A stretch of 64,000 bases of DNA from Dastarcus helophoroides. Taxonomy: Eukaryota; Arthropoda; Insecta; Coleoptera; Bothrideridae. Made by a program: the position numbers and the translations under genes. The stretch covers positions 20,674,536-20,738,535 of the forward strand of contig CM053326.1 in assembly GCA_028583605.1 (NCBI GenBank). Reading direction: 5' to 3'. Shown in pieces: positions 36,530 through 41,489 of the stretch (positions within the stretch are counted from its first letter, which is position 1; each line of letters starts with the position of its first letter). Below the pieces are notes generated by a model. The model did no database searches and was not told the DNA's origin. It was given only the letters and a program-made list of their open reading frames with translations.

Positions 36530-38612
36530 GTTGCTACCAGTGGCGGCTCGCCTTAGGCACTATGGAACTGCAGCACCCCCAATTTCGCTTAAGAGTTTTT
36601 TCTCAAAATTTTCCGAAGACTTTTCATTAAACAATTTTAATTTTTCTCTAATTTCTTTTTATAGAAATGTCAAGTTTCTTTTACGAAGTTACGGGAACTT
36701 AAAATCTATTTAAATTTTTTTTTCTAATATTTGTAAAAATTTTGAGAAAATAATTAAAATTTCAAAATAAAATCTGAATCCAACTATTCTTGCATTTTAA
36801 TATTAATAATTTATTAGCGAATATTCGAGTTATTACCTGAAATTTCAATTTCATCTTTTTTGTAAAAAAATGTTGAGGTTCTTCTAGATATTTCGATTTA
36901 TTTAAGAAAATTAATTTTTTTTCTGCGAAGCTTCCATTTTTTAAAAATATTTTATAAAAAGAATTTTTTTATGAATTCCTATTTTTTCTGAAAATTTTGT
37001 GCTTAAAATTTTTTCTGAAAATTTCAAGTTCTCCAGATTATTTATGGTTCTCTAATTTGCTTTAAAAATGTCAAGTTTTTTTACTAGACTTTGATATTTC
37101 ATAGTTCATTTTATTTTCTAATTTTGATAAAAATGTTTCGCAAAAAACCCTAAAATTTCAATAAAAATGTCAATATTTTGGAAAAAACGAAGAAATTTTA
37201 AGAAAAAATTTAATTTCAAACTGTTTTCGCCTTTCTGAAATAACCGTCTTGAATTATTTTGTAAAGATATTTCAAATTTTTCTCAAATTTCGATTTTCGC
37301 TAAAAAAAATTTGATTTTTTTTTCCCATGAAATTTGTGTTTTTCTTTAAACATTTGATACAAAGAATTTCTTTTACAATTTCGTCTTTTGCTGCAGATTT
37401 TGTCTTTAAAATATTTTTTCTTGTAAAAATTTTGATTTCTCTAATTTGTTTTAGAAATATTAAAGTTTTTCACGAAAAGTTCCTTTTATTTGGTAATTTT
37501 GATAAGAAAATAAAAATTAGTAATTACAAGCTGGCCCTGGCGTACTTGGTGCCACCTCAGAACTAATAAATATTGTGTTAACTCATTAGTTGAATTAAAT
37601 TTTACATTAAAATATTTAATACGCTCGTCCGCTAAGAACGGGCCATAATCAAAACAGATACAGTGCCATCTACTGGAAATTGAATACAACACATTTACCG
37701 TTAGTGTAGATTGCAGTACATTTCTGTCATGTTCCTATTATGAATTAGAGATGGCGCTGTTCACGGATTCCTTATAAAACATGTGAATTTTTTCAATATT
37801 TTAGTCTTCATTCTGCTATTCGAGGCCGAGACAAATCCAACAAAGCAAAGAACATAAAAATCCGTTCAGCCGTTTTGGAATTATAAATGGTGTAACTAAC
37901 ACGACTTTGTTTTATGTATGTAGATAAATTTAAAGAAAATAAACTCCAAATTTGCATAAAAATAAGAAAATTTTAAGAAAAATATTGAAACTTTAAGAAA
38001 AAATGAACTTTGTAAATTTCAACATTTGTTGCAATTTGATTTTCTCTAAAAAATTACTACTACTGTAGGACGAAAGAAAATTCTGATACGAAATTTCCAA
38101 TTTTTCTAAAAATGTTAAATTTATTCTTGAAATTCTCAAGTTCGAATTTAAAGATTAAGAGCAAATTTTGAAGAAAAGGCAGACAATATTTCTAGGAAAA
38201 GTTGAAATTTCTTATTTGTATGCAATATTTTTGGAATTATGTAACAATTTAGGAATCGAAGAAAAAAAACAATATTTAAAAATAAATTAATTGTCAAAAA
38301 TATTCTTAAAATCTCGACTTTTAAAACGGAAATTATTGACATTTTCGAGAAAAAGAGTCAACATTTCAAGAAAAGTCTCATAAATTTCGAAATTAAAAGA
38401 AATCAAAATGTTGCAAAAAATAAATCAACAATTTAATGCTTGAAGTCAATATTTTGAGATTAAAATTTAAATTTTGACATTTTATTTGTACATAAACTGC
38501 AAGTTTTTTTTCGAAATTTGTTTTAAAGCGTCGCACATTTTTAAAAATCGAAATGTTTGTTACTGAAAGTAATTCTATAATGCGCAGACCAATAGGTTTG
38601 AACATTTATTAG

Positions 38613-38685
38613 ATTCGAAGTTTGGAAACCAAATACCGGTTTCGATCTTGTTAGATCTCGTCAGTTTGGTATATCCAACCCGAAT
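38613..38685 (-). ncRNA. Hammerhead ribozyme, array copy 1
   Basis: On the minus strand: CTGACGA (plus 38,658-38,664), stem II GATC/GATC with loop TAACAA, GAAA, stem III ACC/GGT and stem I ACCAAA/TTTGGT with the outer helix. All core positions are intact. The predicted cut lies between plus 38,634 and 38,633. Confidence 0.85.
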
Positions 38686-38988
38686 GCTAACAAATGTTCC
38701 GACAAGTAAGTACTAAAACATTCACAGGCGTCAAGCGAGTGACTCTTAGTACTACCACCTATTGGTCCATGGAGAAACTATGGCCATCGCCAACAATGTC
38801 GTATGCAAGAAGAATGCAACCCAGACTACAAATTCATGCAGCCCTCCAGGCGTGTATAGTGAATCATAGGTAGCTGAACTACCAACAGTTGAAACACTGC
38901 CACCTAGCGAAGCGGTTGCTCTCTAGGAGAGTTCCCAGAAGACAAGGATTCTATAATGCACAGACCAATAGGTTTGAACATTTATTAG

Positions 38989-39061
38989 ATTCGAAGTTTG
39001 GAAACCAAATACCGGTTTCGATCTTGTTAGATCTCGTCAGTTTGGTATATCCAACTCGAAT
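38989..39061 (-). ncRNA. Hammerhead ribozyme, array copy 2
   Basis: Same core as copy 1, with CTGACGA at plus 39,034-39,040 and the predicted cut between plus 39,010 and 39,009, 376 nt from copy 1. The outer stem I reads ATTCGAGTTGG, as in the 33.6-kb copy. Confidence 0.85.
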
Positions 39062-39365
39062 GCTAATAAATGTTCCGACAAGTAAGTACTAAAACATTCA
39101 CAGGCGTCGAGCGAGTGACTTTTTAGTACTACCACCTATTGGTCCATAGAGAAACTATGGCCATCGCCAACAATGTCGTATGCAAGAAGAATGCAACCTA
39201 GACTACAAATTCATGCAGCCCTCCAGGCGTGTATAGTGAATCATAGGTAGCTGAACTACCAACAGTTGAAACACTGCCACCTAGCGAAGCGGTTGCTCTC
39301 TAGGAGAGTTCCCAGAAGACAAGGATTCTATAATGCACAGACCAATAGGTTTGAACATTTATTAG

Positions 39366-39438
39366 ATTCGAAGTTTGGAAACCAAATACCGGTTTCCATC
39401 TTGTTAGATCTCGTCAGTTTGGTATATCCAACTCGAAT
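39366..39438 (-). ncRNA. Hammerhead ribozyme, array copy 3, with a damaged stem II
   Basis: CTGACGA is at plus 39,411-39,417. The base before GAAA (plus 39,397) is changed from C to G on the minus strand. This breaks the conserved first G-C pair of stem II (GATC now faces GATG). The rest of the core is intact, so activity should be reduced or lost. Confidence 0.75.
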
Positions 39439-41489
39439 GCTAACAAATGTTCCGACAAGTAAGTAGAGAGCAACCGCTTCGCTAGGTGGCAGTGTTTCAA
39501 CTGTTGGTAGTTCAGCTACCTATGATTCACTATACACGCCTGGAGGGCTGCATGAATTTGTAGTCTGGGTTGCATTCTACTTGCATACTGAAAGTAATAT
39601 TTATTTTAATATAATATTAAATAAATAATAAATATAATAATAATAATAATACTAAAAAATTTAAATTTAAAAGGAAAAATTACCAGTTACACAAAATAAA
39701 GCCAAAATTATCAGAAAAGCCGAAATTTTGGAAAAAAGTGGAATTATTATAAATTTCGAAATTTTCATAGAAAGTCAAATTTCCAAAGGAAAATAAGGAT
39801 TTTGAAAAAAGTTAATATTTTGAAAACAAATTTTAAATTTTTAAAATTGTTGATATTTTCAATAATTTTGAAAATGGAAAAAGGCAATATTTTGGATAAA
39901 TATCGACATTTAAAATAAATTGCAGAATTTTTAATTAAATTTTCAGAGAAGATAAATTTTTGAATGTTGGTGAAAACTCAAAATAATTAAAAAATTCGTA
40001 ATTATCAAAAAGATTGAAATTTTGAAAAGATAAAATTCTGGAAAAAGTCGAAATTTTGAATAGTTATAATTCAAAATAAAAACTCAATTTTTTTAAAAGT
40101 TGAAGATTTAATTGGGAATGTTCAAACATAAATTATAAATAATATTTTGAAAAAAGTTCGGACTTTTAAAAAAAAAGTCAAATTTTCAAAAAGAGTCGAA
40201 ATTTTGAAAATAAAGTCGATCTTTTGAAATGGAATCGAAATTTTTAGAAAAATTCGAAATTGAGTTGAAAATTTCAAAATAAGGTTTTACGAAATATCTC
40301 ACTTAAAAGAAAAATCAAAATTTTCAAATAAAGGATCGACAGTTTGCAAAGAATATCGAAATTTTGAAAATAGTTTAAATTAAAAAAATAGTCGAAATTT
40401 TTAAGTTTTCCAAACATTTTTAATTTTGAAAAATGGCTAAAATTTTGAAAAATTCGAATATTTGAAAAAACCGAAATTTTCAACAAAGGGGGAATTAAAA
40501 AAAATCGAAAATTTTAGAAAAGTGCGGATTTAAGAAAAGGCTAAAATTTTCAAGAAAAGACCAAAATTTTTTGACACTTTGATCTTTCTAAATTTTGAGA
40601 AATATACGAAATATATAAAAAATTTAAGAATAAGGCAAAAATTTTCAAAAACTTTTAAATTCCAAAAGAAGTCAAAATTTTGAAAATGAAGAACTTTTCA
40701 AACAAATAAATCGAAATTTTATAGTCGAAATTAAAAAAAAATATATCAAAACTTTGAAAAAGTAGACACATTCAAAAGAAATTTTTGGTAGTTACAATTT
40801 TGAATCAAAGTTGAAGATTTTTTACAAAAAGATTGAAATTTTAGGTCACCAAAATAAAAATTTTGAAAAAATGTTAAACGTCAAGATTTAAAAAAAACGA
40901 AATTTAAAAAAAAATCGGAAATTAAAAAGAAGTAAAAATTCAAAAAATAGTCGAAAATGTGAAAAAGTCAACAATTTATAAAATTTCTCCATTTCAAAGG
41001 ATCGAAACTTTGCAAAAAAGTCGCAATTTTGAAAAATGGTTGACATTAAAAAAATCGAAACTTTCAATAAAAATACTAAAATTTCTCAAAAAAAAGATGA
41101 AATTTTGAAAAAGTCAAAAAAAGTTTAAATATTTTCGAAAATAGAGATATTTTTAAAAGAGTATACACAGATTTTCGGAAAAGTCAATACTTAAAAATAA
41201 ATTAAAGTTGAAATTATAAGAAAAAAGTCTAAATTTTGGAATGCAATCGAAATTTGAAAAAATCCGATCTTTCAAAAAACGCCACATTATTAAAAAATTT
41301 TCATTGTCAAGTTTTCTAAGAAATCTAAAATTTTCGAAAGGCTACATTTTGAAAATGTCGAAATTTTTAGTCGAAATTTTAAAAAGTTGAAATTTTGAAG
41401 AAATCGAACTTTTGGATCAAACATAAAACGCTAAACATTGTCGCAGCACCCCCATTAGTTTTGGCTACGAGCCGCCACTGGTTGCTAAA

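Follow-up and report, generated by a model that had tools for sequence, protein, structure and literature searches.

Metazoan non-LTR retrozymes (LTR, long terminal repeat) are described, in the available text of Cervera and de la Pena (2020, PMC7229834), as non-coding tandem repeats carrying type I hammerhead ribozymes, with a unit length of 150-450 bp and a GC content below 50%, and with target duplications longer than 4 bp, self-paired RNA and Penelope-like elements in the genome. Here, we analyzed a 64,000-nt stretch of the genome of the arthropod Dastarcus helophoroides (GCA_028583605.1, CM053326.1:20,674,536-20,738,535, forward strand), hereafter the window, which contains at 38561-39598 an array of 377-bp monomers. 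The family to which this array belongs agrees with the description in its type I hammerhead, unit length, lack of coding sequence, low GC content, duplications of more than 4 bp, self-paired monomer and the presence of Penelope-like elements in the genome, and the identification as an animal retrozyme in a first-pass annotation of the window is thus supported. We further consider it probable that the element is a non-autonomous metazoan retrozyme whose insertion took place through double-ended target-primed reverse transcription, with a single RNA circle as the template.

The family differs from that account in having two back-to-back arms with fixed outer ends, here called A and B, which the available part of PMC7229834 does not mention (our literature search was limited). 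According to the same text, helix III is usable in the majority of invertebrate hammerheads, and the hammerhead stays free in metazoan circles, whereas helix III of the window family is minimal and its hammerhead is predicted to be blocked in the circle. This helix III, one pair with a palindromic tetraloop and a need for dimers, is like that of Amex1, the hammerhead of the newt/axolotl retrozyme, as described there (PMC7229834), although Amex1 comes from an amphibian element of 330 bp.

Minimal type I hammerheads are also reported from the pseudo-LTRs (pLTRs) of Penelope-like elements, in the part of PMC7761336 that was available. The window family shares this minimal type I hammerhead, and some Penelope copies of the D. 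helophoroides genome share its two-armed anatomy, one of them with a perfect 12-bp duplication; unlike these elements, which encode a reverse transcriptase (RT) and a GIY-YIG endonuclease, the monomer is non-coding and was not found in the nine copies read, and the array itself lacks the RT and GIY-YIG pair of an autonomous Penelope. Plant LTR retrozymes carry type III hammerheads in their LTRs and make 4-bp duplications (Cervera et al. 2016, PMC4918200, in the available text). They resemble the window family in their hammerhead-bounded units, proposed circular RNA intermediate and blocked hammerhead in the circle, and differ from its type I topology and 12-13-bp duplications; the window monomer is 68-70% paired, slightly under the "above 70%" of that paper.

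Two arms and two outer ends

Tandem Repeats Finder reported a repeat at 38572-39465 with a period of 377, 2.4 copies and 98% matches, confirming the first-pass annotation of ~377-bp monomers at 376/377-bp spacing. The array consists of two 376/377-bp units and a partial third, followed by an inverted 125-bp piece (Table 1). The tandem array originally placed at 38574-39586 therefore holds up to 39465, while its right part, 39464-39588, is inverted, which had been missed: this piece has 99.2% identity to the reverse complement of unit 1 and shares 2 nt with unit 3 and 3 nt (TAC) with the right duplication. The border repeat, annotated as 12 bp, is actually 13 bp (38561-38573 and 39586-39598). 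Of 200,000 random placements, 3 had an identical 13-mer at a comparable offset; in a looser control, which accepted any common 13-mer between two 40-nt stretches 1 kb apart, 394 of 20,000 placements matched. The statement that the array has no open frame stands for stop-to-stop frames of at least 85 aa, none of which overlaps it; shorter frames of up to 72 codons do. Units 1 and 2, which differ by seven substitutions and one deletion (three of these also present in other insertions), have GC contents of 0.44 and 0.42, compared with 0.39 in a second copy in the window and 0.20-0.27 in the flanks.

The genome (539 Mb, 50 contigs) was then searched with unit 2 as the query, giving 413 candidate places, of which 40 were scored, with 162 matches. 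Among the matches listed, at least 18 other full-length units were identical to unit 2, several of them within one array, and the 376/377-bp unit length recurred in this sample. The element is a young dispersed family in this genome. Arms were read in 39 fetched regions plus the window, 40 regions holding 44 clusters longer than 150 bp. End A was defined as monomer position 370 or later (...GTGCATTATAGA) and end B as position 140-156, mostly 147-148 (...CTTCTTGCAT). In 32 of the 44 clusters, a minus and a plus arm stand back to back with outer ends A and B; the window array belongs to this A+B class, its inverted piece being the B-arm. No cluster had the ends A+A or B+B, while six had A with another end, five B with another end and one neither. 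In L050, counted as A with another end, about nine nt of a B-arm are visible by eye before the duplication.

The arms of the 32 A+B insertions range from 107 to 2057 bp for A and from 31 to 1894 bp for B, with A the longer in 15, and reach 7.5 units in total in one insertion (L048), which has five full units in one orientation. The inner junctions are scattered: 20 overlap by 1-5 nt, two by more and two not at all, and eight have gaps of 1-20 nt. In L030 (about 3111-3139) and L062 (about 3166-3190), both arms start at one monomer position (184/184 and 181/181, respectively), with a short extra piece between them that resembles a fold-back of one complementary DNA (cDNA) on the other. Internal jumps, as template jumps would leave, were seen in L037 (3072-3133, monomer 1-62 adjoining 141-377) and L061 (2217-2548, monomer 202 to 247). 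A lone exact monomer (1-377) with a 14-bp duplication, a one-arm, one-turn case, lies at 2523-2899 of L058.

Target duplications, which the first-pass annotation had expected a genome search with the monomer to reveal, were at least 9 bp long in 29 of the 32 A+B insertions and measured 12 bp in 21, 13 bp in seven and 10 bp in one, so that 28 of the 29 clear cases are 12-13 bp; three of the 32 lack a clear one. The flanks of 31 oriented sites, including two single-armed ones, follow the motif T19-N-R25-N-Y28 / duplication / R27-N-Y27-N-A27. Near-symmetric flanks of this kind would be expected from cutting of the two strands by like enzyme units. The reinsertion proposed in the first-pass annotation has to be modified, the insertion being double-ended rather than a plain tandem.

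Twin priming is known for long interspersed nuclear elements (LINEs), where the first end would lie at the RNA 3′ end and the second anywhere inside, and it would produce an inverted second arm and small junction overlaps such as those described above. It would also scatter the start of the second arm, whereas all 32 two-ended clusters have their second outer end at the fixed position B; the duplications are near-constant at 12-13 bp, and the target is near-palindromic. Ordinary LINE twin priming is already contradicted within this sample, and we regard it as very improbable. Random 5′ inversion, our first view from the window alone, was dropped when the second outer end proved fixed. A satellite growing by unequal crossing over, with the inversion a later accident, would account for the tandem arrangement, and gene conversion would be consistent with the mosaic units found in the window array. 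This explanation is already contradicted by the dispersal of the element as numerous short insertions that share the two ends but have separate duplications, and it is barely credible.

Hammerhead ribozyme and template

The core pattern CTGANGA / stem II / GAAACCGGTH matched the window four times, three times in the array and once in the second copy, versus no match in 100 shuffles. Rfam HH9 (RF02275) aligned end to end with the type I hammerhead of each array unit on the minus strand, with E values of 1e-6 to 6e-4 when 1.4 kb was searched and 5e-5 to 0.03 for the whole window. The covariance-model search named as a check in the first-pass annotation thus found the array hammerheads at 26.3-34.8 bits, though below the curated cut-off; with the Rfam gathering thresholds, the whole window yielded only a tRNA and no hammerhead. 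The stem III loop is absent from the HH9 alignment, and in our reading this causes the low score. The ACC/GGT stem III was confirmed in the array hammerheads, as was the long minus-strand stem I, with 33 pairs in the unit 2 hairpin, in which two varying positions stay paired through A-U/G-U exchange. The GATC/GATC stem II ascribed to every monomer is present in units 1 and 2 but reads GATG in unit 3, breaking the first pair, G10.1-C11.1. Among the 32 A+B insertions, the exact core is kept in 93 of 106 covering units.

Hammerhead pattern scans gave two prokaryote and 13 viral-contig matches, none with at least four pairs in both stems and an allowed cleavage base, and the strict pattern had no match on viral contigs. 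One candidate hammerhead outside this genome, L001, was rejected: it has four and five stem pairs, but a G at the cleavage site.

Stem III is a loopless palindrome, ACCGGU, and because of this, one hammerhead alone is unable to close the three stem III pairs, while two molecules or two units can, by their sequence, form a six-pair stem III duplex. The best single fold of the 60-nt hammerhead (-16.6 kcal/mol) pairs the core C, U and G with stem III bases, compared with -13.0 kcal/mol when the core is kept open, and in the 110-nt hairpin, core bases C3, U4 and G5 are free at a probability of 0.01-0.03. The double hammerhead (-35.3 kcal/mol) is nearly equal to the best two-molecule fold (-35.6 kcal/mol). 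The monomer RNA as a whole is strongly self-paired (z -8.15; 0 of 100 shuffles equally stable). Cleavage at the predicted sites would yield RNAs of 376 and 377 nt.

Whether both arms had come from one template was assessed from variants in the 32 A+B insertions (153 units), using positions covered by at least two units of one insertion. Of 83 substitutions, 67 occurred in one unit only, four were mixed and 12 were present in all covering units. These 12, one each in 12 insertions, always span both arms: 5/5 units in L025 and L026; 4/4 in L027, L042 and L051; 3/3 in L047 and L052; and 2/2 in L033, L043, L046, L053 and L056. Shuffling units among insertions 1000 times gave a mean of 0.158 such variants and a maximum of two. 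Five of the 12 are private to one insertion; the recurrence of the other seven indicates that part of the uniformity was inherited from source elements. The template appears to have been joined at the cleavage point, since 60 of 64 arms run across it and only two of 64 inner ends fall 5 nt or less away. Variants present in all units of both arms are indirect evidence for a circle step, and a circle would explain a joined, uniform template most simply.

The main rival is double-ended priming on a linear multimer that was transcribed from a uniform array and left uncut or cut in part. The arrays themselves are near-uniform, so their transcripts would be likewise, and the units of the window array are mixed. 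On the other hand, no other array seen is as long as the arms of L048, such transcripts would be cut by the hammerheads, and the source elements are inverted two-armed arrays; we consider the linear multimer unlikely, but to be taken seriously. The unit differences within the window array were set aside as an argument for a multimeric template, shared variants elsewhere being mostly uniform; in this homogeneity of units the window array is still an exception.

For the circle, folding predicts that monomer 137-139 and 143-147 pair with 375-377 and 366-370, eight pairs with probabilities of 0.72-0.82, which would bring sites A and B together. Pairing as good was found in 242 of 20,000 random 12-mer pairs, and 19 of 2000 shuffled duplexes were as stable.

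Candidate helper and proposed route of insertion

Scoring of the best 150 of 1070 candidates with a GIY-YIG profile gave at least 91 matches over the cut-off among those listed, and two proteins scanned had RVT_1 and GIY-YIG in one frame, the combination of domains that marks Penelope-like elements with an endonuclease. The ends were read in nine copies of a single family, selected by GIY-YIG match (coordinates of L063 reversed). Three of the nine (L065, L069 and L071) are two-armed, with outer ends A′ at about 5275 and B′ at 5233-5234. L066 has B′ and L068 has A′, each with an internal second end, while L063, L064, L067 and L070 have one arm each; no copy has A′+A′ or B′+B′. L065 is flanked by a perfect 12-bp duplication with five of six flank-motif positions, L071 by one of about 12-14 bp that contains a mismatch and is preceded by AAC, and L069 by an imperfect one only. 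Inverted pLTRs are known from Penelope copies.

The monomer had no match in any of the nine Penelope loci, and no hammerhead was found in the seven that were motif-scanned, two of which (L063 and L064) were also scanned with Rfam. The Penelope open reading frame (ORF) of L063 had no match in the window; it matched two of the 39 retrozyme regions, outside the arrays and at 41-46% identity, pointing to other Penelope families. The copies are therefore not always parts of Penelope pLTRs beside an RT gene, an alternative that the first-pass annotation had raised. In a related explanation, the element would not be a retrozyme with an origin of its own but a Penelope deletion form, its repeats descending from the pLTRs of a family whose coding part was lost. 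The insertion anatomy common to Penelope copies here and the minimal stem III, as in Penelope hammerheads (PMC7761336, in the available text), speak for such a derivation; the absence of the monomer from all nine loci (one family) and of a hammerhead from the seven scanned makes it quite improbable.

Double-ended priming might also have used the enzyme of another non-LTR retrotransposon. The comparison covered nine Penelope copies of one family, the L063 repeat has no flank motif, and the retrozyme and Penelope ends are not significantly alike. Set against this are the A′+B′ anatomy shared by L065, L069 and L071 and the duplication and motif of L065, and we think such a source rather doubtful. 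Likeness between the end sequences of the two kinds of element was rejected as support for a Penelope-like enzyme, not being significant.

The route we propose, read from the sequences and from folding, begins with an array transcript that would be cut after monomer 317 by two hammerheads paired via the palindromic ACCGGU, and the resulting 377-nt RNA would be closed into a circle. In the circle, the lone hammerhead is predicted to be locked through pairing between its core and its stem III, so that the circle would stay closed, and sites A and B would be opposite strands of one short helix. Judging from the duplications and flank motif, the enzyme would cut a roughly palindromic target with a 12-bp stagger. 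One DNA 3′ end would then prime copying at A and the other at B, the outer ends that are observed, and both cDNAs would run round one circle, often more than once, as the variants in all units of both arms suggest. The two cDNAs end up back to back, at junctions that often overlap by 1-5 nt. The most likely source of the enzyme is a Penelope-like element that bears an endonuclease and acts in trans, as a few copies of one family suggest. The chances seem evenly balanced that retrozymes and helper Penelope-like elements in general use double-ended priming on a symmetric 12-bp cut at two facing helix sites, with the retrozyme arms copied from one circle that the hammerhead, needing a partner, would leave closed.

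Several observations weigh against insertion from one circle by a Penelope-like enzyme. The regions read were the best-scored 40 of 413 candidates, which favours young copies, and 12 of the 44 clusters are not A+B. Four mixed variants occur in three insertions (L028, L030 and two in the window array), and seven of the 12 shared variants recur elsewhere (231A in three; 301T, 217C and 19A in two each), because of which we set our confidence in this route and in the general reading slightly lower; a uniform linear multimer could give the same pattern. The window array is itself a mosaic in which unit 1, unit 3 and the B-arm carry variants of older copies and unit 2 is of the young type, possibly through gene conversion or template switching. 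All four HH9 scores in the window are under the curated cut-off of 52, and the stem III duplex, when imposed on a 753-nt tandem dimer, raises the folding energy by 4.3 kcal/mol. The A:B helix is a folding prediction from one sequence, without covariation, and the linear fold gives its pairs a probability of only 0.23-0.60. On the Penelope side, the support consists of three A′+B′ copies of one family, L063 has a 12-bp repeat lacking the flank motif and an end about 27 nt beyond A′, and the end likeness is not significant, 162 (A) and 312 (B) of 2900 20-mers scoring as high.

Other features of the window and implications

Table 1. Retrozyme copies, their parts and neighboring features in the window.
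Feature	Position	Strand	Description
Left target-site duplication	38561-38573		TACTGAAAGTAAT, 13 bp
Unit 1	38574-38949	-	376 bp, A-arm; left edge is outer end A (monomer 377)
Unit 1 hammerhead	38611-38682	-	HH9 34.8 bits; predicted cleavage after A38634
Unit 2	38950-39326	-	377 bp; reference monomer 1-377
Site A in unit 2	38950-38962	-	Monomer 365-377; predicted pairing with site B
Hairpin around unit 2 hammerhead	38971-39080	-	110 nt; 33-pair stem I
Unit 2 hammerhead	38987-39058	-	HH9 34.4 bits; predicted cleavage after A39010 (monomer 317)
Site B in unit 2	39179-39192	-	Monomer 135-148
Partial unit 3	39327-39465	-	Monomer 239-377; inner end of A-arm
Unit 3 hammerhead	39364-39435	-	HH9 26.3 bits; predicted cleavage after A39387
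B-arm	39464-39588	+	Inverted piece, monomer 25-149; outer end is end B
Right target-site duplication	39586-39598		Copy of the 13-bp duplication
Second insertion	33466-33730	+	One arm, monomer about 114-376, end A
Old diverged relative	26193-26305	-	Monomer 261-374; spans hammerhead and end A; core GAAA lost
Open frame	8134-18921	-	3,595 codons
tRNA gene	35952-36023	-	Rfam, 69.6 bits
Tandem array	45208-45709		54/109-bp units, 80-93% matches
Transposase-like frame	62158-62742	-	DDE_3 match under curated cut-off

The second insertion in the window has a hammerhead with CTGATGA at 33641 and an HH9 match of 37.2 bits at 33623-33694. Its flanks hold a probable duplication of 10-11 bp, AAAGAC(A)TTTT, whose copies differ by a 1-nt indel; an equal match was found in 86 of 5000 random placements. 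Between the two inserts of the window, the hammerhead region differs at 2 of 110 sites, versus 14 of 150 elsewhere (p 0.016), or 2 of 110 versus 13 of 151 (p 0.028); this difference was not used for the model. The old relative was found by nhmmer (E 2.8e-6, 21.1 bits, against a best score of 3.9 bits in 10 shuffled windows), and an Rfam scan of it detected no hammerhead. Among the neighbors, the long open frame has Ser/Thr/Pro-rich repeats and three CBM_14 chitin-binding stretches near its end and, judged by its sequence, is a mucin-like peritrophin. Together with the DDE_3 match, this frame points to an arthropod host.

As far as their available text goes, PMC7229834 and PMC7761336 do not settle which enzyme mobilizes metazoan retrozymes and regard the circle as the probable template, and the genomic copies described here bear on both points. 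A single template molecule for each insertion is suggested by the variants that all units of the two arms have in common. A signature made up of two fixed ends, a duplication of 12-13 bp and a near-palindromic target can be searched for in any retrozyme or Penelope-like element. If the proposed route is true, it would be a form of retrotransposition with a single RNA circle as the template for priming from both DNA ends.

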